Translations under genes and position numbers: made by a program
In this document: in pieces, positions 2,485 through 55,054 of the stretch
How the letters are laid out: each line of letters opens with the position of its first letter
Numbering within the stretch: position 1 is the first letter of the stretch
Assembly: GCA_016278485.1 (NCBI GenBank)
Contig: JADQBT010000021.1
Location: 1-55,125 of the forward strand
DNA: 55,125 bases
Source: Halanaerobiales bacterium
GTDB taxonomy: Bacteria; Bacillota; Halanaerobiia; Halanaerobiales; Halanaerobiaceae
Direction of reading: 5' to 3'
The notes under the pieces: generated by a model
What the model saw: only the letters and a program-made list of their open reading frames with translations
Told to the model about the DNA's origin: nothing
Database searches by the model: none

Positions 2485-3888
2485 TCAGGCTGGATGAATA
2501 GTCCAAAGCATCCCTGAATTGGCAAATGACATCCAACCACCTTGATTGGAAGCAACATAACCATAATCAAGTACATAAAGCTGATTACCTAAAGGTGAAA
2601 ATTTAACATCTATGGGTCGTTCAATACCTGTACCTTTTCTGCCAGGATTTTTATTAATATAAAAATCACTAATTTCACCTGTTGAAATATCTAATCTAAC
2701 AATCCTAAATCCACGTTGATTACTAATTATTTGATTATTATTTATTTCTTCACTTAGTGGATTAACAAATATATGTGGAGCAGCTCCCCCATACTCAGCA
2801 ATATACATTTCTCCTTTTCTACCAAAATAATTTTCAGGTGAAAAATCAAATTTCATGGGGATCTCACCATGAGGAAATACATAAGTTGGCTCAACAGGTA
2901 TTTCGGGATGTTCTGCTAATAGAAAATCGAGTGGAGGACCATCTGGTGGAGCAAAAAATTGATCAGTGATCGGAACTCCAGCCGCGTAATCTGGCCAGCC
3001 ATACCAGCCTCTTTCATCTACTCTCCATAAAGCACCGGGTGCATTATTAACTGGTCTACTACCCCTTAAATCATAACCTTGATCAATTGTATAAAGCTCA
3101 GCCTCAGGCGAGATACCTAATGCAAAGGGATTTCTAAAACCATCTGCAACCCTTCGCAAATCTTCTCCATTAGTCTTAACAGCATAAATAACACCATTAC
3201 ATTTTAGTTGGCCTTCTATCAATTCTTGCTCAGTTACTGCTTCTCCAAAAGGCTGATATCCACCTGTCGCTACCATGTTTGCTTGATAGGGGGTAAAAAT
3301 ATTAATTGTTCTATAATTTTCTTCTCTTAATATTAGATCACGACAAGGAATATCATGACACTCTGGTCTTACTAATAACCAACCAAGGTTATCCAATCCA
3401 ACTACTCCAGAATTTGTAGCAGTACCAACTCCAAAATATAATTGGTTATTCTCTCCTAAAATCACATCCCCTGTCATATGATCACCACAAGTAGGTAAAT
3501 TATCTACTAAAACAATTCGTTCCCTCCCATCATCACTAACTTTTAAAATTCTGCCTGGATAACCTCCTTCAGCTACATAGAAATATCCTTCAGACCAGGT
3601 TAGGCCAGTTAATGGTGGTCGAAAACCACTCGCTATTTCTTCAATTCTTCCCCTATGATATCTAAGAATTCTGCCTCCCCCTGCCGAATATGCAGGGCCA
3701 TAAGAATAACCAGCTTCTGATAGAAACAGATTACCACGGTCATCAAAGGTAATTCCAGTTGAAAATGTCAAACCAACTATTAATGGTTTTAATTTAAAAC
3801 CCTGTTCTAGATAAAAATCTTCTGGTTTTGCCGGAATTCTAGTAGCAGGTGGTGGTGCATCGACAATATTTCTTCTCCAATTAAACAT
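2485..3888 (-). CDS. PQQ-type sugar/sorbosone dehydrogenase-like beta-propeller protein
   Basis: This 467-aa protein has the repeated blade pattern of the GSDH/sorbosone dehydrogenase and NHL propellers (GITFDDRGNLFLSEAG, GLTWSEGYFYVAEGGYPGRI, GFRNPFALGISPEAELYTID, MYIAEYGG, PIDVKFSPLGNQLYVLDYGY). No signal peptide is visible: it starts MFNWRRNIVDAPPPATR, so it would be cytoplasmic unless exported another way. Family members use PQQ or act as calcium-binding lactonase-like propellers, and whether this one binds PQQ cannot be read from the sequence. No PQQ biosynthesis gene is in the window. The fold is confident, the activity is not. Confidence 0.75.
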   Translation of the reverse strand: MFNWRRNIVDAPPPATRIPAKPEDFYLEQGFKLKPLIVGLTFSTGITFDDRGNLFLSEAGYSYGPAYSAGGGRILRYHRGRIEEIASGFRPPLTGLTWSEGYFYVAEGGYPGRILKVSDDGRERIVLVDNLPTCGDHMTGDVILGENNQLYFGVGTATNSGVVGLDNLGWLLVRPECHDIPCRDLILREENYRTINIFTPYQANMVATGGYQPFGEAVTEQELIEGQLKCNGVIYAVKTNGEDLRRVADGFRNPFALGISPEAELYTIDQGYDLRGSRPVNNAPGALWRVDERGWYGWPDYAAGVPITDQFFAPPDGPPLDFLLAEHPEIPVEPTYVFPHGEIPMKFDFSPENYFGRKGEMYIAEYGGAAPHIFVNPLSEEINNNQIISNQRGFRIVRLDISTGEISDFYINKNPGRKGTGIERPIDVKFSPLGNQLYVLDYGYVASNQGGWMSFANSGMLWTIHPA

Positions 3889-4001
3889 GATAAAACCCCT
3901 TTTTTGTTTTTATTCATCATATTCAACTGGTTGTTATCTTGCTAAATTTTCTTAGCATAATATATACTCAAACTTATTATTCTAATATTATTTTGTTTTT
4001 T

Positions 4002-4031
4002 TTGACAAAAATATAGATTGTCCAATATAAT
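4002..4031 (+). promoter_or_regulatory. sigma-A promoter of fetAB
   Basis: TTGACA (4002-4007), an 18-base spacer and TATAAT (4026-4031) lie 57 bases upstream of the fetA start. Both hexamers match consensus. Confidence 0.8.
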
Positions 4032-4088
4032 TATTATAATCAAAATCAATATTATATTTATAATAATTAATGATTAAAGGAGTTATCT

Positions 4089-4730
4089 ATGTTTAAACTA
4101 ACTGCTGTCAAATATAAAGATATCTTGGACATTAAAGATCTAAAAATTGAAGAAAAGAAAATAACCTGTATTGTTGGCAAAAGTGGTGGTGGTAAGACCA
4201 CATTACTAAAATTACTAAATAATATGGTCTCTTGTGATAGTGGTTTACTAAAATTTAAAGGCCAAAAAATATCAGATTATAATCCAATTCAATTAAGACG
4301 TGAAATTATAATGTTACCACAAAACCCTATTATGTTTTCTACAACTATTAAAGACAACTTTACTAAAACATTAAAATATACAGGAAATGAATTAAGAAGT
4401 GAAAATAACTATGTTAATTTACTTAAAAAATTAGACTTAGAACATAATCTTGCTACAGATACAATTAAATTATCTGGTGGTGAAAAACAGCGTTTAGCCC
4501 TGGCGCGTGTATTATTGCTAAAACCTAAAATCTTATTACTGGATGAACCGTCATCTGCCCTGGATGAAGATACAGAAAAATTCATTATTAAAATGGTAGT
4601 TAATTATATTAAAGAAAACAATGGCACTCTAATTATGGTAACACATTCCAGGAGTATTGCTGATGAATATGGAGATACAATTATTACTTTAAATAATGGA
4701 CAGATTGAAAATGTAGAAAAGAGGAGGTAG
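4089..4730 (+). CDS. fetA: ABC transporter ATP-binding protein, FetA/YbbL type
   Basis: This 213-aa ATPase subunit has Walker A GKSGGGKTTL, a Q-loop (LPQNP), signature LSGGEKQRLALAR, Walker B ILLLDEPSSALD and an H-loop (VTHSR). Its length is typical of stand-alone ABC ATPases. The next gene, 7 bases downstream, is a FetB-family permease, so the pair matches the FetAB (YbbL-YbbM) system, described in E. coli as an iron exporter that helps under oxidative stress. Start ATG follows AAAGGAG. The promoter is consensus. The metal specificity here is inferred from family and pairing. Confidence 0.85.
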   Translation: MFKLTAVKYKDILDIKDLKIEEKKITCIVGKSGGGKTTLLKLLNNMVSCDSGLLKFKGQKISDYNPIQLRREIIMLPQNPIMFSTTIKDNFTKTLKYTGNELRSENNYVNLLKKLDLEHNLATDTIKLSGGEKQRLALARVLLLKPKILLLDEPSSALDEDTEKFIIKMVVNYIKENNGTLIMVTHSRSIADEYGDTIITLNNGQIENVEKRR

Positions 4731-4737
4731 CTAATTT

Positions 4738-5526
4738 ATGGACAATATTATTGATATATCACTTATGCAAATATTTACTGCTTTCATTTTTGTACTTATT
4801 CTCTTGATTATCGTCAAACGGGAACATATTGGTGGTGAATGGGAGATAATATTAGCCAATATTAGAATGACAGTCCAACTAATATTAGTTGGTTATCTTT
4901 TAACCTATATTTTCGCCAACCCTAATCTGGTATTTACCGTAATCATTTTATTATTGATGCAGGGATTTGCTATTCAGAATATCTATGGAAGGATTAATAA
5001 AAGAATTTCAACTGATCTAAAAAAAATAGTTGCCATTGCAATGTTTACAGGAACAACTATTACTATCCTTTATTTTGTTTTAATAGTTATTAATCTTAAA
5101 CCCTGGTTCCAGCCTCAATATTTTATTCCTCTTGCCGGAATGTTAATAGGCAATTCCATGACAGGCATATCTCTGGGAATTGAAGGTCTAATCAATGGTA
5201 TTAAAGATAATCAAGCCATGATTGAGAATGCCTTAATGTTAGGTGGTAAGCCAGAACTAATTACAAAAGATATTACAGGTAGAGCTTTTTATCAAGCCAT
5301 CTTACCTACCATAAATTCCATGATGGGAATGGGGATTGTTTTCTTACCAGGCATGATGACAGGTCAGATTTTAGCCGGAGCCGCACCTTTAACTGCAATA
5401 AAATATCAGATTGTGATTATGCTGGGAATTCTCGGCAGTGTCACACTTACAGTCTATATTATGATTAAATGGGGAGCAAAAACCTTCTTTAATGAGAGAT
5501 CACAAATTTCTATAAGTCAAAATTGA
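4738..5526 (+). CDS. fetB: FetB/UPF0014 family ABC permease
   Basis: This 262-aa integral membrane protein has about seven hydrophobic segments. It shows family motifs NIRMTVQLILVGYLL near the N-terminus, the PLAGMLIGNSMTG segment mid-protein, and GMGIVFLPGMMTGQILAGA near the C-terminus. It forms the exporter with the preceding ATPase. The start has GAGGAGG nine bases upstream. Its last 17 bases overlap the convergent xth gene (5510-5526), so the two transcripts are antisense at their 3' ends. Confidence 0.88.
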   Translation: MDNIIDISLMQIFTAFIFVLILLIIVKREHIGGEWEIILANIRMTVQLILVGYLLTYIFANPNLVFTVIILLLMQGFAIQNIYGRINKRISTDLKKIVAIAMFTGTTITILYFVLIVINLKPWFQPQYFIPLAGMLIGNSMTGISLGIEGLINGIKDNQAMIENALMLGGKPELITKDITGRAFYQAILPTINSMMGMGIVFLPGMMTGQILAGAAPLTAIKYQIVIMLGILGSVTLTVYIMIKWGAKTFFNERSQISISQN

Positions 5527-6274
5527 CCGTAATAGGACAGTGATCAGATCCTAATACATCTGTTAAAATTTCAGCATCTAACAATTTATCTTCTAATCCT
5601 TTGGAAATAAAATGATAATCTATTCTCCAACCTGCATCTCTTTCGCGGGCCCGGGTGCGATAACTCCACCAGGAATAAGTCTCTTTCTCAGGATGGAGAT
5701 ATCGGTAAGTATCAATATAATCATTCTCTTCCAATTTATCAAGCCACTCCCGTTCAATTGGCAAAAAACCCGAAGTATCTTTATTTGCTTCAGGGTTTTT
5801 TAAATCAATAGGATGATGGGCAGTATTATAATCACCACAAATAACAACTTCCTTACCTTGCTTCCTTAATTTTTCACTATAATCGAAAACCTCATCATAA
5901 AAATCTAGCTTATATTGCAAACGTGTGTTACTTCCCTTACCATTAGGGAAATAAATATTTAGTAAAATAAATTCGGGATATTCAGCAGCAATAACTCGTC
6001 CTTCCCTATCAAACTTTTTATTTCCTAATCCATACCAGACATCCAGAGGTTCTTCTTTAGTATAGATTGCCACTCCACTATATCCTTTTTTCTCACCAAA
6101 CGTAAAATATGAATGATAGCCATCAATATTTCTTAATTTATCTTCCAATTGATGATCCTGAATTCTTATTTCCTGTAAACCAAGCACATCCGGCTGTTCA
6201 CTTTCCATCCATTCTAAAAATCCTTTTTTGGCAACTGCTCTAATTCCATTTACATTCCAGGAATATATTTTCAT
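5510..6274 (-). CDS. xth: exodeoxyribonuclease III (AP endonuclease family)
   Basis: A 254-aa member of the ExoA/ExoIII endonuclease-exonuclease-phosphatase fold that acts on abasic and 3'-blocked DNA in base-excision repair. Visible motifs are the start MKIYSWNVNGIRA, metal-binding LQEIRIQ, GDYNTAHHPIDL, YSWWSYRTRARERDAGWRID and the catalytic GSDHCPI near the C-terminus. The length is usual for the Gram-positive ExoA type. It begins directly after the selB stop, so it is probably the last gene of the grd-sel transcript. Its 3' end overlaps fetB on the other strand. A functional link to selenium is not implied. Confidence 0.93.
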   Translation of the reverse strand: MKIYSWNVNGIRAVAKKGFLEWMESEQPDVLGLQEIRIQDHQLEDKLRNIDGYHSYFTFGEKKGYSGVAIYTKEEPLDVWYGLGNKKFDREGRVIAAEYPEFILLNIYFPNGKGSNTRLQYKLDFYDEVFDYSEKLRKQGKEVVICGDYNTAHHPIDLKNPEANKDTSGFLPIEREWLDKLEENDYIDTYRYLHPEKETYSWWSYRTRARERDAGWRIDYHFISKGLEDKLLDAEILTDVLGSDHCPITVNFDL

Positions 6275-14779: not shown

Positions 14780-16099
14780 TTATTCTTCTCCAAAAACAGT
14801 CTGACAGTCAATCTCTGTCTGTAAAGCATCTAATGCCATTTCAACTATCCTTCTTCTGATATTTTTCTGAGCTTTATCATCTAAAGCTGGATTACCAAGT
14901 GGATGTGGAATAGCAACAGCAGGAACGATACGATTTGCACCTACTGTTTTAGAGATAGGTACTACTGTAGCCACATGTACTACTGGTAAGCCTGCACGTT
15001 CTATTTCTTTCACCATCGTTGCACCGCAACGTGTACAAGTACCTCAAGTAGAAGTTAAAATAACTGCCTGAACACCATCACTTACTAGTTCTGCTGCGAT
15101 TTCCTGAGCATAACTTTTAGCATTAGCAACAGATGTTCCATTACCAACAGTAGAATAATAATAATCGTATAATTTACCGATCTTACCCTCTGATTCCATA
15201 TCACGAAGTACATCTATTGGTAAAACACAATCAGGATCATTATTAGCATAAACTGGGTCATAGCCACCGTGGGCAGTTTCGTAATCAAGGGCAGTTAAAT
15301 CTTTAACCCCTGAAATACTGTACTTACCATATTTGGAAGCACTTGATGATTCAATATGATCAGGATTACCAGTTGGAACAATACCTCCTGAAGTAACTAA
15401 AGCAATTTTAGCATTAGCTAAATCTTTTAATGGAGGAACCGGGTCTACTCTATCAAAGACAGGCATTGGATATTCAGTCACAAAATCATCACCATTAATT
15501 TTAGCAACCAACATTTTTACTGCTCGTAATGAACCTCTTTCTTCAACAAAAATATTATTGCGAATACCCCGCGGAAGATAGCCTGCTTCCTCAGGTCTGC
15601 CTAAATCCCCATCTTTTTCTATATACATTTTAATTAACTTCACCATAGCAGGCAGAGCTTCCCTCATACCAGCTGCAGAATTAGTAGTTTCAACAAAATA
15701 AGCATATTGGTGGTACATATCATAGCCAGGGTTTTCTGGGTAAATACCAGATATTACAGGAATCCCTAATTCACCATTAGCTACTTCTGCTACTGCTCCA
15801 CAAGCCATACCATATCTCCCCGCATTGAATGCCGGGCCAGCAATTACTAGATCTGGCTTAACTTCTATTAGATACTTCTTAATTTCAGCCTTGGCTTCCT
15901 CCAAATTTTCATTAAAATAGGTATCGCCACAAATAATTGTTCTAACTATTTCAGCTGAATCTCCTAATGCATTATTAAATGCCATACCTGCACCTACTGG
16001 TTCATCTTTATAACTAGGCGGTATATTTGCCTTTTCTTCTCCACCAATCTGACCGAAAAACTGGTTTATATAATGAACAACCTTCAATTTATCTTTCAT
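14780..16099 (-). CDS. grdB: glycine reductase component B selenoprotein subunit GrdB
   Basis: 439 aa when the in-frame TGA at 15044-15046 is read as selenocysteine (Sec352). Conceptual translation stops at ILTST and continues after the TGA as GTCTRCGATMVKEIERAGLP. The resulting UGTCTRC motif is the known redox/substrate centre of GrdB-type subunits. GrdB binds the substrate amine with the pyruvoyl subunit from GrdE and passes the carboxymethyl group to GrdA. The start MKDKLKVVHYINQFFGQIGG is family typical and follows AAAGGGGGG. Glycine rather than sarcosine or betaine is inferred from the glycine riboswitch upstream. An apparent short gene at 14780-15016 is only its C-terminus. Confidence 0.96.
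15017..15046 (-). promoter_or_regulatory. SECIS element and Sec codon of grdB
   Basis: The TGA (15044-15046) is followed, 12 bases on, by a hairpin with a perfect 6-bp stem CGTTGC/GCAACG (15031-15026 and 15022-15017) and a GGT loop. A short stem whose loop carries unpaired G residues at this distance matches the bacterial SECIS rule for SelB recognition. It is read as RNA while also coding TRCGATM. Confidence 0.8.
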
Positions 16100-18728: not shown

Positions 18729-18769
18729 TAAAAAGAGTAGCAACGGGAAAATAAACCCATTACTACTCT
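18729..18769 (-). terminator. riboswitch-controlled intrinsic terminator
   Basis: A 14-bp stem with some G-T pairs (arms 18769-18756 and 18747-18734, outer part AGAGTAG/CTACTCT) encloses an 8-base T-rich loop and is followed by T residues. Its 5' arm shares bases 18764-18769 with the P1 helix of the second glycine aptamer, so the two folds exclude each other. Glycine binding should prevent termination. Confidence 0.85.
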
Positions 18770-18944
18770 GTCCTTGTACCTGAGAGATTATCAAAAAGAT
18801 TGCTCCTTCGGTGTTTACTAATCTAAACTTTCCAGAGTACTGTCCAGAGATGGTCCTTTCGCCTGAGAGTTTCTACCAGCAACCATGGCTGTTTGCTAGA
18901 TTTACCCCTTCGGCGGCAAATGAATGCCCTCTCCCATCTCTTTC
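18764..18944 (-). ncRNA. tandem glycine riboswitch
   Basis: Two aptamers lie head to tail. Aptamer I runs from about 18944 to 18845 with P1 AGAGATGG/CCATCTCT and the conserved GCCGAAGGGG and CAGGCGAAAGGACC segments. Aptamer II runs from 18839 to 18764 with P1 TACTCTG/CAGAGTA and the related CACCGAAGGAGCAA and CAGGTACAAGGACAG segments. A short linker joins them, as in cooperative gcvT-type switches. The terminator overlap predicts a glycine-ON switch for the grd operon. Confidence 0.95.
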
Positions 18945-27122: not shown

Positions 27123-27350
27123 AAAAAAACCCGTCCCTAGAAAAAAAGGGACGAGTTTAAATACCCGTGGTACCACCCTGATTGGTAAAAAATTACCCAC
27201 TCATTGGAAAGTTAACGCCTTTTATACGTAGTCAACTAATTCATTTCATTGACTAGGCTCAGAAATGAGTTCAGTTCGTTCTTTATCGGTTCACAGCAAA
27301 CACCGACTCTCTTAAAAAGAAACTTAAACTTACTAATTTTCTTCATAGCC
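27123..27350 (-). ncRNA. T-box leader of leuS with terminator
   Basis: The conserved T-box GGGTGGTACCACGGG (27178-27164) is followed by a terminator with a 10-bp stem (27156-27147 and 27138-27129) and a T-run. Upstream lies a stem I region with the AGAGAGTCGG and GTGAACCGAT segments. The likely specifier is CTC (27269-27267) in GAACTCATT, a Leu codon. Uncharged tRNA-Leu would stabilise the antiterminator and switch leuS on. The 5' boundary is approximate. Confidence 0.92.
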
Positions 27351-27372
27351 TTTATATATATTATCATTTGTC

Positions 27373-49328: not shown

Positions 49329-50807
49329 TTATTTTGAAATATACTTTAGGTCTTTTATTATTTTAATAGCTGCAAAAAAGATAATCAAAAACTCTAATCG
49401 ACCTAAAAACATACCAGCAATCTCTGTTATTAAGATGTGGTTAGGTGCCGAAGCTGACGTTATTCCAATTGATAATCCAACAGTTCCCAAGGCAGAACCA
49501 AACTCAAAAAGACTTTCTTGCAATCCATATCCTGATAGTAGAAAGATTGCAACCCCAACTGCAAAAGTTAAGAGATAAAGCATTATGTAATTGGCTATTT
49601 CTTTTATATGTTCCGCATTGATATACTCCTTATTATCACCTTTCCAAATATAATTTTCTTTTACCTGATTTCGAGGTGAAAACTGCTCTTTAATCTCCCA
49701 AAAAATGGATTTAATCATAATATATATTCTATATTGCTTTATACCACCAGCTGTAGAACCAGTTCCTCCACCAATAATCATTAAAATTATTATAATGAAA
49801 TTTGCAAACAATGGCCAAGTATTAAAGTCTATAGTTGAAAAACCAGTTGTTGAAATGGCAGAGACTACTTGAAACAAAGTAATTCGCAAATTCGTACCTA
49901 AACTAGCATAGACCAAGTTTAAACTTGTAAACATCAATAATGGTGTTAAAAACCCAATAATTAATAACATAAAGCGAATCTCACCATTACGAAAAAATGT
50001 TTTTACTTTACCTTGTAAAAGCGTAAAATGACTAGCAAAGTTAATAGTACCTAATAACATTAAGATAATCGTTATTAATTCAATATCAAATTCTGGCCAA
50101 TAACCAATACTTGCAGATTTTGTTGAAAATCCGCCAGTTGACAGAGCGGCCATAGCATGATTAATAGCAGAAAAAAGATCCATACCAACCAGCCAGTATA
50201 AAAAAATACCTGACAGTACAAATCCTCCATATATCCTCATAATCATAGCAGTCGATTTTTTTACGTGTGGCAAAAGTTTGTCATTCCTTGCCTCAGCTCT
50301 ATACAGACCCATGCCGTGAACAGGCAGTAAATAAGATAAAGCAATAACTGCTAAACCTGCTCCTCCTAATAGTTGCATTAGACTTCTCCACAATAAAAAA
50401 ATTGCAGGTGTTGTTTCCACATTCATCACTGAAAGCCCAGTAGTTGTCCAACCACTTACTACTTCAAAAATTGCATGTGTCCAGCTCATTTTCATTCCCC
50501 ACAAAAAAGGAATAGCAGAAAAAAACATTGCTAAAATCCAGGATAACAAAACGATAATACTACCTTCTTTTAATGTCAAATCAACTTGCGAATTATCACT
50601 AGAATGACCATAAAAGTACATTAATCCACCAACAACAAAGGCGAATATTGAAGAATATATAAAATGAATAATATAGTTTGTTTCACCTGGATAAAAAACC
50701 AAAGATAAAAGAGGTAAAATAAGAGCTAGAGCTGTTAATATAACAAGAATGCCAGTATATTTAATAATAAGTCTATATCTGACGGCCAATACTTTTTTGT
50801 AATTCAT
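49329..50807 (-). CDS. trkH: Trk potassium uptake protein TrkH
   Basis: 492 aa ion-channel subunit with four pore repeats. Filter segments are visible as GWTTTGLSVMN, ALSTGGFST, ISTTGFSTID and GTVGLSIG, each with the key glycine. It imports K+ and pairs with TrkA-type regulators. It starts immediately after the TrkA gene and is the last of the operon. In a halophile it would serve osmotic and pH homeostasis; the c-di-AMP riboswitch upstream supports control by K+ status. Confidence 0.94.
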   Translation of the reverse strand: MNYKKVLAVRYRLIIKYTGILVILTALALILPLLSLVFYPGETNYIIHFIYSSIFAFVVGGLMYFYGHSSDNSQVDLTLKEGSIIVLLSWILAMFFSAIPFLWGMKMSWTHAIFEVVSGWTTTGLSVMNVETTPAIFLLWRSLMQLLGGAGLAVIALSYLLPVHGMGLYRAEARNDKLLPHVKKSTAMIMRIYGGFVLSGIFLYWLVGMDLFSAINHAMAALSTGGFSTKSASIGYWPEFDIELITIILMLLGTINFASHFTLLQGKVKTFFRNGEIRFMLLIIGFLTPLLMFTSLNLVYASLGTNLRITLFQVVSAISTTGFSTIDFNTWPLFANFIIIILMIIGGGTGSTAGGIKQYRIYIMIKSIFWEIKEQFSPRNQVKENYIWKGDNKEYINAEHIKEIANYIMLYLLTFAVGVAIFLLSGYGLQESLFEFGSALGTVGLSIGITSASAPNHILITEIAGMFLGRLEFLIIFFAAIKIIKDLKYISK

Positions 50808-51470
50808 TTAATTTTCACCGCCAAGTATTCTAATCGCAAGAGCTTGATCTTCAGGTAAAGATATCACTAATACCTTATCACCAGGTTTAATAACAGTTTC
50901 TCCTCTCGGAATAATTACATTTCCCTCTCTAATTATTCCACCAAGAACTATGCTTAAGGGAAGGTTAATAACCCTAACTTTCTTTCCAGCAGCAGGAGCA
51001 TCTTCAGGTATAATTATTTGAGAAACGCTCAATTTTCCTTCTTCCAATGTAACTAAATTTCTAATATCTTCTGAAACAACATTTTGCTCAATTAAACTGC
51101 TTAAAAGTTCAGTTAAATTAAATATCCCATTGATGCCCATTTTTTTAAACAATGATTCATTATCTGGGTTGTTGACTATAGATGTTGTTCGTTCAATTCC
51201 AAAATATTCTTTTGCCATCTTACAAATAAAAAGATTATCATGATCTTTTTGTGTTAGTGCAACTAAAACATCCGTACGAAACGCACCAGCATCTTCTAAA
51301 ATATCTTTATCAGAAGCTTCACCACATACAATAGTAGCATTTAATTCTCTTGCTAACTCTTTTGTATAAATTTCATCCTTATTAATAACTACAACAAAAT
51401 AACCTTTAGCAATTAATCTTTTAGCAAGGTGATAAACTAATTTTCCACCACCAACCAACATAATTTGCAT
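50808..51470 (-). CDS. trkA: TrkA-type potassium channel regulator (RCK_N + RCK_C)
   Basis: 220 aa. Residues 1-120 form a Rossmann RCK_N domain, and 135-218 an RCK_C domain (LSVSQIIIPEDAPAAGKKVR, IIPRGETVIKPGDKVLVISL). Its dinucleotide loop reads GGGKLVYHLA, where the third glycine of GxGxxG is replaced by Val. RCK_C domains of related KtrA/CabP proteins bind c-di-AMP, which makes direct ligand control of the channel possible here; that is inference. It lies 2 bases from the short TrkA gene. Confidence 0.9.
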   Translation of the reverse strand: MQIMLVGGGKLVYHLAKRLIAKGYFVVVINKDEIYTKELARELNATIVCGEASDKDILEDAGAFRTDVLVALTQKDHDNLFICKMAKEYFGIERTTSIVNNPDNESLFKKMGINGIFNLTELLSSLIEQNVVSEDIRNLVTLEEGKLSVSQIIIPEDAPAAGKKVRVINLPLSIVLGGIIREGNVIIPRGETVIKPGDKVLVISLPEDQALAIRILGGEN

Positions 51471-51472
51471 AC

Positions 51473-51883
51473 TTATCCCTCAATTCTACCAATACTGTCT
51501 AACATTCCTTTTACTAATAAATCATATTGAGAAACTACCTCAATCTGTTTACTATCATTATAAATATGGAGTTTTTTGTGATCAGTCAATCTCACAATGA
51601 TCTTTGGTACTTTAAAAACATGTTCAGCTAATTTTGCCACCATATAATTAACCTTATCATTGCCTGTTATAACAATCACTGTATCTGCTTGATCTACTCT
51701 TGCATTTTTCAAAATATCCTGTTCTAATGCATCTCCCTCAACTTGAAATCCAGAAAAATCAACAGGCAATCGCTTAAAATTCTCTGCTACTTTTTCAACA
51801 ACAACAACCTCATGACCAGAACGGGAAAGCTCACCTGCTAGCATAGATCCTGCTCTCCCATTACCAATAATAACGATAAACAT
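51473..51883 (-). CDS. short TrkA-type NAD-binding (RCK_N) protein
   Basis: 136 aa: only the RCK_N domain, with a good GNGRAGSMLAG dinucleotide loop and the acidic ribose ligand in VVVEK. No RCK_C domain follows. It resembles one half of the classical two-domain TrkA. Together with the full-length neighbour it may build a mixed ring around TrkH. The first base of its ATG is the last base in the response-regulator stop overlap. Confidence 0.88.
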   Translation of the reverse strand: MFIVIIGNGRAGSMLAGELSRSGHEVVVVEKVAENFKRLPVDFSGFQVEGDALEQDILKNARVDQADTVIVITGNDKVNYMVAKLAEHVFKVPKIIVRLTDHKKLHIYNDSKQIEVVSQYDLLVKGMLDSIGRIEG

Positions 51884-52572
51884 TATACTTCTTCATCGCC
51901 CATATTGATTTTCTCTAAATCAATCTTTCCCATTGATTCACCTGCTCGTTGCAGATTCTCTGTTGCCGGACTATAAGCAGGATCAATTGCCAGCGCAGCG
52001 CGGTACATTTTCATTGCTTCAGCCTGATTATGTTTTAACTCATGGATAATACCTAATAAATTAAATGGTTCAGGTTTTTCTGGATTTATCGAAGTTGCTT
52101 TTTTTAATAAATTTCTAGCTTCTTCAAAGTTTCGTTTATTAATTGTTGATTTTGCTAAATTTAAATGATCTGAAAAGCCCTCTACACTATCACTATTTTC
52201 TTCTAATTCATATCTAGCATAAACTTCTTCAACTAATTCTATTATTTCAGTAGGCTTAAATGGTTTACGTAAAAAATCAACAGCTCCTAACTTCATAGCT
52301 TCAACAGCTGTTTCCACATTCCCAAAGCCTGTGATCATAACCACCCTAGTCTGATAATCAAGATCTCTAATTTGTTTCAAAAACTCCATACCACCCATAC
52401 CTGGCATTTTCATATCAAGTAAAATTACAGGGTAGTTAGTATCATTAATTTTTTGCAAACCATCTTCACCATTAACAGCTGTTGAGACAGTAAATCCAGC
52501 CTTTGCAAGAGCTTTTTCTAATGTCATCCTGATATTTTTTTCATCATCAATTATTAATATCTTTTTTTCCAT
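51883..52572 (-). CDS. response regulator with C-terminal TPR domain
   Basis: 229 aa from ATG 52572 (MEKKILIIDDEKN), eight bases after GGAGG. Receiver domain residues 1-120 have acidic pair Asp9-Asp10, phospho-acceptor Asp53 (VILLDMKMPG) and Lys in FLRKPFKP. Residues about 135-215 hold two or more TPR units (FEEARNLLKKATSINPEKPE, AEAMKMYRAALAIDPAYSPA). There is no DNA-binding domain, so output is probably by protein contact. It overlaps the preceding regulator and the next trkA. Confidence 0.88.
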   Translation of the reverse strand: MEKKILIIDDEKNIRMTLEKALAKAGFTVSTAVNGEDGLQKINDTNYPVILLDMKMPGMGGMEFLKQIRDLDYQTRVVMITGFGNVETAVEAMKLGAVDFLRKPFKPTEIIELVEEVYARYELEENSDSVEGFSDHLNLAKSTINKRNFEEARNLLKKATSINPEKPEPFNLLGIIHELKHNQAEAMKMYRAALAIDPAYSPATENLQRAGESMGKIDLEKINMGDEEV

Positions 52573-52945
52573 TTTCATTTCCTCCTTCTAAATATTTCTC
52601 TACAGCATTCAATAAAGTCTTTTGGTCTATTGGCTTAACTAGATAATCGCAAGCACCTAAACTAAAGACCCTTTCAAAATCTTCTTCAGTAGATCTTGCT
52701 GAGATAACAATCACTGGTATATCAGTTGTCTGCTCATCATCCTTGATTGCCTCAAGCACAAGAAAACCATTCATCTTTGGTAATCGCAAGTCTAATAAAA
52801 TTAAGTCAGGATCTTCTTCACCTGCTTTTTCTACAGCTTCCAAACCATCTTTTGCTTTGATAACATCATACCCAGCTATTTCTAAGCTTTTACTAATTAC
52901 TAATAATATATTTTTTTCATCATCAACAACTAAAATTCGTTCCAT
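52547..52945 (-). CDS. single-domain response regulator (receiver only)
   Basis: 132 aa receiver domain with Asp8-Asp9, phospho-acceptor Asp52 (LILLDLRLPKMNG), Ser in VISARS and Lys in YLVKPID. A short polar tail follows and no output domain. Such CheY/Spo0F-like proteins relay phosphate or contact targets directly. It begins after AGGAGG, 15 bases past the kinase stop, and overlaps the TPR regulator by 26 bases. Confidence 0.9.
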   Translation of the reverse strand: MERILVVDDEKNILLVISKSLEIAGYDVIKAKDGLEAVEKAGEEDPDLILLDLRLPKMNGFLVLEAIKDDEQTTDIPVIVISARSTEEDFERVFSLGACDYLVKPIDQKTLLNAVEKYLEGGNENGKKDINN

Positions 52946-52959
52946 TCTAAATAGACCTC

Positions 52960-54765
52960 CTAATAACCATATCTTGGAAGGTAAAAAGTGAACTTAGAGC
53001 CCTTACCTTCCTCACTCTCCAACCAAATTCGACCATGGTGAGCATTAATTATTTCTTTGGAAATTGCTAAGCCAAGACCTGTACCTCCACTATCATCTAA
53101 ATCATTACCTGCTCTAACGAACTTGTCAAATATTTTATTTTGATACTCTTTTGGTATCCCTGATCCATTATCCTCAACATAAACCAATATTTTTTGACCT
53201 TTTATATCTGCTCCAATTTTAATTTCACTTCCTGATGGTGAATAGCGTAATGCATTTCCTACCAAATTAGAGATTACCCAACTTATCTTATTTGCATCAG
53301 CTCTTGCAAAAAGATTATCTTCCAACTCTTCTAAATCTATTTTGATATTATTATCATCCGCCTGTTTTTGAAATGGTTTAACTGTTTTAGTAATAACATG
53401 TTTTATATCAGTTTTTTCAAAATCCATTTCAATTTTACCTGATTCAATCTTTGATAAATCTAATAAATCATTTACTAAATCAGTCAGTCTTTCCACATCT
53501 TCATAAGCTGCTGCAAGTAATTCCTCTTGTTCTTCATTTAAATCTCCGGTATCACCTGATAAAACCATATTTAAACTCATATTCATTGATGTTAAAGGTG
53601 TTCTAAATTCATGAGAAACTGTTGATACAAACTCTGACTTCATATTATCAATCTCTTTTAAGCGAGTAACATCCTCTAAGAGTGTAACTGTAAACTGATA
53701 GTCTTCATCCTCTTCTGTAATTTGATTTGTTGAAACCTTATAATGGAATCTCTTATCTTTATCATCAACTGCTATCACCTTATCTTCTGTAGCTTCGGGA
53801 TTTTGCACAAACTCGAATAATTGTTCATTAGGGATGATTTCAAGAAAATGTTTATTTAAGTCTTCTTTGGTTATTGAAAACAAATCACGTGCTGCTTGAT
53901 TTAATAAAACTATAAAATTATCTTTATCTGTTACAATAATGGGCCCAGATACATTATTGACTATTGCTTCTGATTTTTCTTTTTCAATAACTAATTTCTT
54001 TATATTGATTTTCTCATATTCTTGTAATTTATTAATCATATCATTAAATGAATCTGCTAGTTGACCAATTTCATCCTCTGAATCAACCTTAACTTTTTGC
54101 TGGAAATTCCGGTCTGCTACTTTCTTAATACCAATTTTCAATTCATTGATAGGACTTATAATTTGTCGAGTTAAATAAAAACCTATTAAGAGTACAAAAA
54201 TTACAGCTGCAATTGATACCAAAGCAGTAGATATCATAGCTTGATTTGCCTGGGCATTAGCATTTTCCTGTGCTTTTACCATAGCCTCTCTGTTAAGTTC
54301 TCTTAAATTCCTTATATCCTCTTTAATTTCTATAAATAAAGGAAGCAGTGTTTGATTATATACTTGCCATTTTTCAGATTCAGAACCATAATAAAATGAA
54401 TCAAAACTAGTAATAAATTTATAATATTTTTCATCAATACTTAATAATATATCTGCTTCTCCTTCAATCGTGATATTATCTTCTGCTCTTGCTAGAGAGG
54501 TATAAAATTCTTTTTCATTTCTACGAAATATTTCCTGTCCCTTTTCTGTGGGTCCTCTTAATAATAAGAGTAAGGCACTATCTTGACGTTCTAGTGATTC
54601 GACCATATTTTCACTTGCTTTAATACTGCGATAATTTTCTACCATTATTTCATTAATTGCACCAGCCAAACTCTGAAAATTATAAATACCCCAAACTGCT
54701 ACAGCAGATAAAATTAAAATAACTACGAGATATCCAGTTAATATTTTTATTCTGATACTTTTCAT
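52960..54765 (-). CDS. membrane sensor histidine kinase (4-helix sensor, HAMP, PAS)
   Basis: 601 aa. A first membrane helix (residues 9-30), an extracytoplasmic helical sensor (about 31-170), a second helix (about 178-200), HAMP (about 201-255), PAS (about 265-380), HisKA (STVSHEFRTPLTSM), and HATPase_c with NLVGNALRYSP, EDNGSGIP and GTGLGLAISK. The layout is that of WalK/PnpS-type kinases. Cognates are the two receiver proteins just downstream. Its stimulus is unknown, but co-transcription with Trk genes suggests osmotic or K+ stress. AAAGGAG precedes the ATG. Confidence 0.93.
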   Translation of the reverse strand: MKSIRIKILTGYLVVILILSAVAVWGIYNFQSLAGAINEIMVENYRSIKASENMVESLERQDSALLLLLRGPTEKGQEIFRRNEKEFYTSLARAEDNITIEGEADILLSIDEKYYKFITSFDSFYYGSESEKWQVYNQTLLPLFIEIKEDIRNLRELNREAMVKAQENANAQANQAMISTALVSIAAVIFVLLIGFYLTRQIISPINELKIGIKKVADRNFQQKVKVDSEDEIGQLADSFNDMINKLQEYEKINIKKLVIEKEKSEAIVNNVSGPIIVTDKDNFIVLLNQAARDLFSITKEDLNKHFLEIIPNEQLFEFVQNPEATEDKVIAVDDKDKRFHYKVSTNQITEEDEDYQFTVTLLEDVTRLKEIDNMKSEFVSTVSHEFRTPLTSMNMSLNMVLSGDTGDLNEEQEELLAAAYEDVERLTDLVNDLLDLSKIESGKIEMDFEKTDIKHVITKTVKPFQKQADDNNIKIDLEELEDNLFARADANKISWVISNLVGNALRYSPSGSEIKIGADIKGQKILVYVEDNGSGIPKEYQNKIFDKFVRAGNDLDDSGGTGLGLAISKEIINAHHGRIWLESEEGKGSKFTFYLPRYGY

Positions 54766-54787
54766 CTAATTTCTCCTTTCTTAAAAC

Positions 54788-54817
54788 AAAAAATCCATTA
54801 CAGTTAACTGTAATGGA
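54788..54817 (-). terminator. leader terminator below c-di-AMP riboswitch
   Basis: A perfect 24-base palindrome (54794-54817, arms TCCATTACAGTT and its complement) gives a 9- to 10-bp stem with a TTAA loop. It is followed by T residues (54793-54788). It lies between the riboswitch and the kinase start and is the likely off state. Confidence 0.88.
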
Positions 54818-54874
54818 GCATTAAACATCCCTAATTAATATCTATATCTATAAATATTCTAGGTAATTTAAGTT

Positions 54875-55003
54875 TTCTGCTCCTTTAGGTGTCTACGAGG
54901 TTAGCTGTCGGGCTAGAAGCAAAAGATCTTCTTCCTTAATGGATAAGCCCCAAAAAAATTGGGTCCCCCGCTCTTTATAAATATAAAGATTAGACAACAG
55001 AAA
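54875..55003 (-). ncRNA. cyclic-di-AMP riboswitch (ydaO-yuaA type)
   Basis: Conserved blocks of this class are all present on the minus strand in order: TTGTCTAATC, AGCGGGGGACCC, TTTTTTGGGGCTTATC, CCCGACAGCTAACCTCG and CACCTAAAGGAGC. A P2 hairpin (CTTTATATTTATAAAG) follows the first block, and P1 closes with TTCTG/CAGAA. In Bacillus such switches turn off K+ uptake and wall genes when c-di-AMP rises. A terminator 58 bases downstream fits an OFF switch. Confidence 0.93.
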
Positions 55004-55025
55004 TACGATTTATTTTGTTTACATT

Positions 55026-55054
55026 ATTAAACCACATTTTCAATGTAATGTCAA
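55026..55054 (-). promoter_or_regulatory. promoter of kinase-trk operon
   Basis: TTGACA (55049-55054), 17 bases and TTTAAT (55026-55031) lie just upstream of the c-di-AMP riboswitch. The start site would be about 55019. Confidence 0.8.

Follow-up and report, generated by a model that had tools for sequence, protein, structure and literature searches.

Control of K+ importers by riboswitches that respond to cyclic di-AMP (c-di-AMP) is already known. In Bacillus thuringiensis, an RF00379 aptamer followed by a terminator lies upstream of the K+ importer genes of the kdpFABC operon, transcription terminates when c-di-AMP is bound to this ydaO-type switch, and the switch replaces a two-component system; in kdp operons, the switch and an effective KdpDE pair have been reported to be mutually exclusive (PMC6488665). 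KdpDE is the example of a kinase dedicated to a K+ importer: KdpD acts as a serine/histidine kinase and controls its own K+ pump at the protein level, the short form of KdpD has a c-di-AMP input, and c-di-AMP itself rises with K+ (PMC11018627). Here we describe a locus on a contig of a Halanaerobiales bacterium (GenBank assembly GCA_016278485.1, contig JADQBT010000021.1) in which a predicted c-di-AMP riboswitch precedes genes for a sensor histidine kinase (HK), two response regulators (RR1 and RR-TPR), two TrkA proteins (TrkA1 and TrkA2) and the K+ channel subunit TrkH. The window that was analyzed is the complete contig (C18; 55,125 bases), and genes upstream of the promoter are beyond view.

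The order of RF00379 aptamer, terminator and K+ importer genes is that of the B. thuringiensis kdp switch. However, the kinase and regulator set, instead of being replaced by the switch, lies within the operon that the switch controls, and the K+ importer is Trk. HK resembles KdpD in being dedicated to a K+ importer, but the N-terminal KdpD domain (PF02702) was not found in it by Pfam, its layout is that of a four-helix bundle with HAMP and PAS domains, and neither RR1 nor RR-TPR qualifies as a KdpE-type DNA-binding response regulator; membership of the KdpDE family was therefore rejected. As in TrkAH and KtrAB, a TrkH pore is accompanied by RCK-domain TrkA proteins, but in the window TrkA is split into an RCK_N protein and an RCK_N plus RCK_C protein, and it travels with HK and RR-TPR. 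A literature search, conducted mostly without subscription papers, found no account of an HK/RR-TPR/split-TrkA/TrkH block, and the tables of the primary ydaO surveys might list kinase genes downstream of this switch. The kinase-plus-importer block appears to represent a mode of K+-uptake control that has not been described.

Results

The six genes of the operon are encoded on the minus strand. HK (601 aa; 52960..54765) is composed of two transmembrane helices, an extracytoplasmic four-helix bundle, and HAMP, PAS, HisKA and HATPase_c domains. According to Pfam, RR1 (132 aa; 52547..52945) is a receiver domain alone, lacking an output domain, and RR-TPR (231 aa; 51883..52578) consists, by Pfam and a structure model, of a receiver and TPR helices without a DNA-binding domain. 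The importer genes, assigned by Pfam, encode TrkA1 (136 aa; 51473..51883), which is RCK_N alone (TrkA_N; PF02254), TrkA2 (220 aa; 50808..51470), which has RCK_N and RCK_C (TrkA_N and TrkA_C; PF02254 and PF02080), and the K+ translocating subunit TrkH (492 aa; 49329..50807), which matches PF02386 at 175 bits (cut-off 27) and TIGR00933 at 277 bits, under the 331 cut-off of the latter. Because the matches to TrkA models fall mainly in the first half for TrkA1 and are best in the second half for TrkA2, the pair is taken to be a split TrkA; a sequence-only reading that had preceded this analysis was right to count two TrkA genes, which are really one-domain and two-domain pieces of a single split protein. 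The same reading had noted a gene run without breaks, and this is what we found: the six co-directional genes overlap or are separated by gaps of ≤15 nt, and the only other terminator-like match in the operon interval lies within a gene, with none between genes. Kinase to trkH is thus probably a single transcript.

The sensor of HK was modeled as an extracytoplasmic four-helix bundle between the two transmembrane helices (mean pLDDT 89.8), and its motifs ENYRSI..AE.M..LERQDSA and RAEDNIT are kept from Halanaerobiia to Desulfobacterota and cyanobacteria. Its predicted fold is shared with the KinB, NarQ and chemoreceptor (MCP ligand-binding) sensors; the match of the model to the KinB sensor has a Z score of 15.2 over 124 residues at 2.1 Å, high Z scores being common among helical bundles. 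KinB was rejected as a sequence relative because the profile match reached an E value of only 0.1-0.5, and it is therefore used here as a fold resemblance alone. The invariant residues of RR-TPR are D11, D12, D55, T83 and K105, together with many TPR positions. A fold search with the RR-TPR model found matches to receivers that mostly covered about 120 residues, and no solved full-length receiver-TPR relative.

The leader of the operon begins with a sigma-A-type promoter (55026..55054, minus strand), with a TTGACA -35 element, a 17-nt spacer and a TTTAAT -10 element, that ends 19 nt 5' of the aptamer; near-perfect promoters of this kind occur 5 times in the 55-kb window, compared with 0.26 expected. 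The aptamer itself (ydaO/yuaA, RF00379; 54875..55006, minus strand) is a full-length covariance-model match to model positions 1-134, with a score of 74.7 bits and an E value of 1.5e-15 (gathering score 38), and it is the sole RF00379 match in the 2.86-Mb genome. Downstream is an intrinsic terminator (54786..54817, minus strand), consisting of a hairpin with a 10-bp stem plus T6 at 54817-54794. In the window a terminator scan alone performs at chance (2 found vs 2.2 expected), and a terminator is found at the same place 3' of the aptamer in most relatives. A Shine-Dalgarno-like AAGGAGA lies between the terminator and the first gene. The promoter, ydaO-yuaA riboswitch and terminator that had been read from the sequence alone ahead of the kinase-to-trkH genes are therefore all borne out. 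There are two diadenylate cyclase (DAC) genes in the genome. That the ligand is c-di-AMP and that the switch would be of the OFF type are suggested by analogy with the studied kdp switch, which terminates transcription with ligand bound (PMC6488665). The genome has four TrkH-family genes in all, three besides the operon trkH (G000:C29), none of which is under RF00379; no KdpA was detectable.

A candidate antiterminator can be drawn between GGAGCA (54878..54883, minus strand), which overlaps the extension of the aptamer P1 stem (UUCUG:CAGAA), and UGCUCC (54815..54820, minus strand), which overlaps the 5' arm of the terminator. The leader fold is more stable than shuffled sequences (z -3.2); it consists of the aptamer, including P1 and the P1 extension, followed by an intermediate hairpin and then the terminator. 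Prior to synthesis of the terminator 3' arm, the minimum free energy structure includes GGAGCA:UGCUCC, and this pairing blocks the 5' arm of the terminator; in the full leader, the terminated fold is 2.1 kcal/mol lower (-60.9 vs -58.8 kcal/mol). Both in the window leader and in 11/11 other leaders tested from its family that precede the block, the 5' arm of the terminator finds its best pairing partner at the 3' edge of the aptamer, which fits a ligand-stabilized P1 freeing the terminator. The GGAGCA:UGCUCC pairing is offered as a candidate model.

The same gene order is widespread in Halanaerobiia. RF00379 is present in 27 of the 38 genomes of the order and RR-TPR-like regulators in 28 of them. 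The survey for HK-RR1-RR-TPR-TrkA1-TrkA2-TrkH, 3' of the switch, found it in 22 Halanaerobiia genomes, one locus in each: the window, 11 others of its family, G024, G034, G035, G037, five of family f8 and Orenia metallireducens (L101). The kinase directly follows the switch in 10 of the 22 loci, and KtrB-like and KtrA-like genes lie between switch and kinase in the other 12, with an additional permease gene in G308. Many of the relatives are metagenome-assembled genomes (MAGs) with short contigs; in G010 the contig end falls early in trkH, and loci G020, G032 and G036, which are additional to the 22, are cut upstream by contig ends. RR1 genes dropped by the open reading frame (ORF) filter were recovered with tblastn. 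RF00379 elements were also observed behind trkH or Ktr-like genes in L064 (G016:C22:19516-19645), L063 and L075. In L064 and L075 the extra element precedes kdpA-like genes, so that a single genome can have the switch at two of its K+ systems.

The block extends well beyond Halanaerobiia. In a draw of 398 genomes from the phylum Bacillota, the full-length RR-TPR profile (>200 bits) and the kinase sensor profile (>270 bits) each identified 16 genomes, and the two sets are identical; at these thresholds HK and RR-TPR are single copy, side by side, and flanked by trk genes in 16/16. Outside the Bacillota, HK-RR-TPR-TrkA1-TrkA2-TrkH without RR1 is encoded in MAGs labelled Desulfarculaceae, Desulfobacteraceae, Thermoleophilia, Hydrogenedentota, Caldilineae, Omnitrophota and Xenococcaceae, which adds six further phyla (Desulfobacterota, Actinomycetota, Chloroflexota, Omnitrophota, Hydrogenedentota and cyanobacteria). 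In high-GC loci antisense ORFs disturbed the gene calls, and L105, L106 and L108 were judged by where tblastn placed RR-TPR, between HK and TrkA1. Most Bacillota blocks include the receiver-only RR1 and some do not; RR1 is missing, with HK and RR-TPR kept, in L103-L109, L111, L219 and L221.

The riboswitch does not share this distribution. RF00379 was not detected at block loci outside the Bacillota, and among Bacillota blocks outside Halanaerobiia only that of G089 has the switch. None was found before five other such blocks (L215, L217-L220) even at E ≤ 1, only 330 nt of upstream sequence being available for L220, and at the gathering threshold there was none in genome G115 and none at loci L221, L103-L111 or L080. 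Of the two, the kinase/RR-TPR/Trk block therefore appears to be older, with the switch added mainly in Halanaerobiia; the distribution of the switch suggests a gain by the block, not losses elsewhere. The sequence-only reading had considered it unusual for a signaling set to be placed inside a switch-controlled operon; that arrangement is conserved in Halanaerobiia, but the direction is reversed, since it was probably the switch that was added to the block.

Homologs of the kinase are also found beside another K+ system. Distant homologs of HK and of the receiver regulator adjoin kdpABC and a short KdpD in G121 and G396, and in L113 the kinase and regulator come after KdpB, KdpC and a KdpD-domain protein. 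These neighbors suggest that the kinase family is tied to K+ uptake in general. In L224, L225 and L113, kinases with the HK type of sensor and a receiver regulator adjoin kdp genes, and the KdpD proteins are short.

Elsewhere on the contig, all on the minus strand, are a selenocysteine tRNA (1860-1954) and a SECIS_4 element (15006-15043), which together indicate that a selenoprotein gene is probably encoded, as well as a glycine riboswitch aptamer (18758-18845; one RF00504 match above threshold) and a T-box leader (27144-27355; 152.5 bits).

Discussion

We consider it reasonably probable that the leader attenuates the whole operon as a c-di-AMP OFF switch, and that the kinase/RR-TPR pair tunes Trk by protein contact. 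One transcript would begin about 13 nt 5' of the aptamer and extend to trkH. When c-di-AMP is high and K+ sufficient, the stabilized P1 and its extension would prevent GGAGCA:UGCUCC pairing, the terminator would form and the operon would be off; at low c-di-AMP, the antiterminator would form and the operon would be read, so that importer and kinase would be made together when K+ is scarce. Because ydaO-type switches terminate transcription when c-di-AMP is bound (PMC6488665), the kinase genes would be turned down together with Trk. The earlier suggestion that the kinase pathway is silenced at high c-di-AMP is thus to be expected by analogy with the kdp switch, although not under the name of phosphorelay that it was given.

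The products of the operon would be a Trk importer, formed by TrkH and a split TrkA gate, and a dedicated two-component pair, HK and RR-TPR. Phosphorylated RR-TPR would contact the TrkA/TrkH gate, with RR1 acting as an accessory branch or phosphate sink. An output by protein contact is suggested by the absence of DNA binding in either regulator, together with the inheritance of kinase and RR-TPR with trk, or kdp, across phyla; the signal perceived by the kinase may be K+ or osmotic. There is a precedent in the protein-level control that KdpD exerts on its own pump. A wider proposal, to which we give somewhat less than an even chance, is that this is an unrecognized multi-phylum K+-uptake module running from kinase to receiver-TPR protein to Trk channel directly, without a transcription factor, and nested under a c-di-AMP riboswitch in Halanaerobiia.

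Several observations weigh against this interpretation. In G031 (L085, oriented 3601-5857) the switch lies directly before TrkA2 and TrkH and the kinase genes are absent, and L231 has a split TrkA and TrkH without kinase genes, from which it follows that Trk can function without the kinase. RR-TPR is kept without an adjoining HK or TrkH in G026 and G029 (L078 8389-10800 and L079 9337-10812), where the switch is followed by a 106-111-aa protein of no known family, RR-TPR and an amino-acid-permease-Usp fusion, and in G029 additionally by a KtrA-like protein. The kinase-Trk association is consequently strong but not obligatory. The correlations between the pairwise distances of the five core proteins (0.87-0.96 over 595-780 pairs) fit inheritance of these proteins as a unit, but they are uncorrected for species phylogeny. 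The antiterminator duplex energies of single leaders are not above those of shuffled sequences, and the kinase could phosphorylate a DNA-binding regulator encoded elsewhere. It was also observed that trkH of L085 is split over two ORFs.

Receiver-only regulators are often adaptors or sinks, and RR1 and RR-TPR might be just that if the kinase regulates distant genes through an unlinked DNA-binding regulator, the linkage to trk then reflecting a shared osmotic need. The existence of split TrkA and TrkH without the kinase would agree with such an arrangement, but the constant partner of the kinase across phyla is RR-TPR rather than a DNA-binding regulator, and many positions of its TPR part are as invariant as those of its receiver, so we judge this explanation unlikely. 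It is distinctly improbable that the switch governs only the front of the operon, with internal promoters or processing uncoupling the kinase from trk: promoter-like sites do occur inside the operon, but at chance level (37 found vs 33.7 expected), and the genes overlap or abut without a terminator-like site between them.

The presence of two receivers beside one kinase is what a true phosphorelay would predict, with phosphate passing from HK to a Spo0F-like RR1, on to an unlinked HPt or Spo0B-like protein, and from there to either RR-TPR or another regulator. However, Pfam detects no HPt, Spo0B-like protein or hybrid kinase in the operon (an unlinked phosphotransferase was not searched for), there is no space for RR1 between HK and RR-TPR in L103-L109, L111 and L221, and both the other phyla and some Bacillota lack RR1. 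The phosphorelay claimed by the sequence-only reading was therefore rejected as a Spo0-type system, the relay being very improbable, and the dispensability of RR1 in evolution makes it a better candidate for an accessory branch than for a relay intermediate. Least probable of these explanations is that the aptamer has drifted into a weak binder, leaving a leader that terminates transcription constitutively but only in part. Among the switches of its family that precede the kinase-Trk block, the window aptamer does score lowest, and its motif GGGGCUUAU departs from the consensus GGGGUGAAU, but the score is 37 bits above threshold, the terminator is retained, and GGGGCUUAU is also found in G009, with GGGGCUAAU/GGGGCGAAU in many relatives.

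In most two-component systems the final component is a DNA-binding regulator. The window instead layers a c-di-AMP switch and a kinase set on one K+ importer, with a kinase output that would proceed without a DNA-binding protein. Direct kinase control of a Trk channel is testable by moving the five or six genes into K+-uptake-deficient E. coli. The kinase, RR-TPR and split TrkA set of several phyla is hereby assigned a likely role in the control of K+ uptake, and if the proposed mechanism is true, then in Halanaerobiia a second messenger would set both the importer and the gain of the importer's own regulator.

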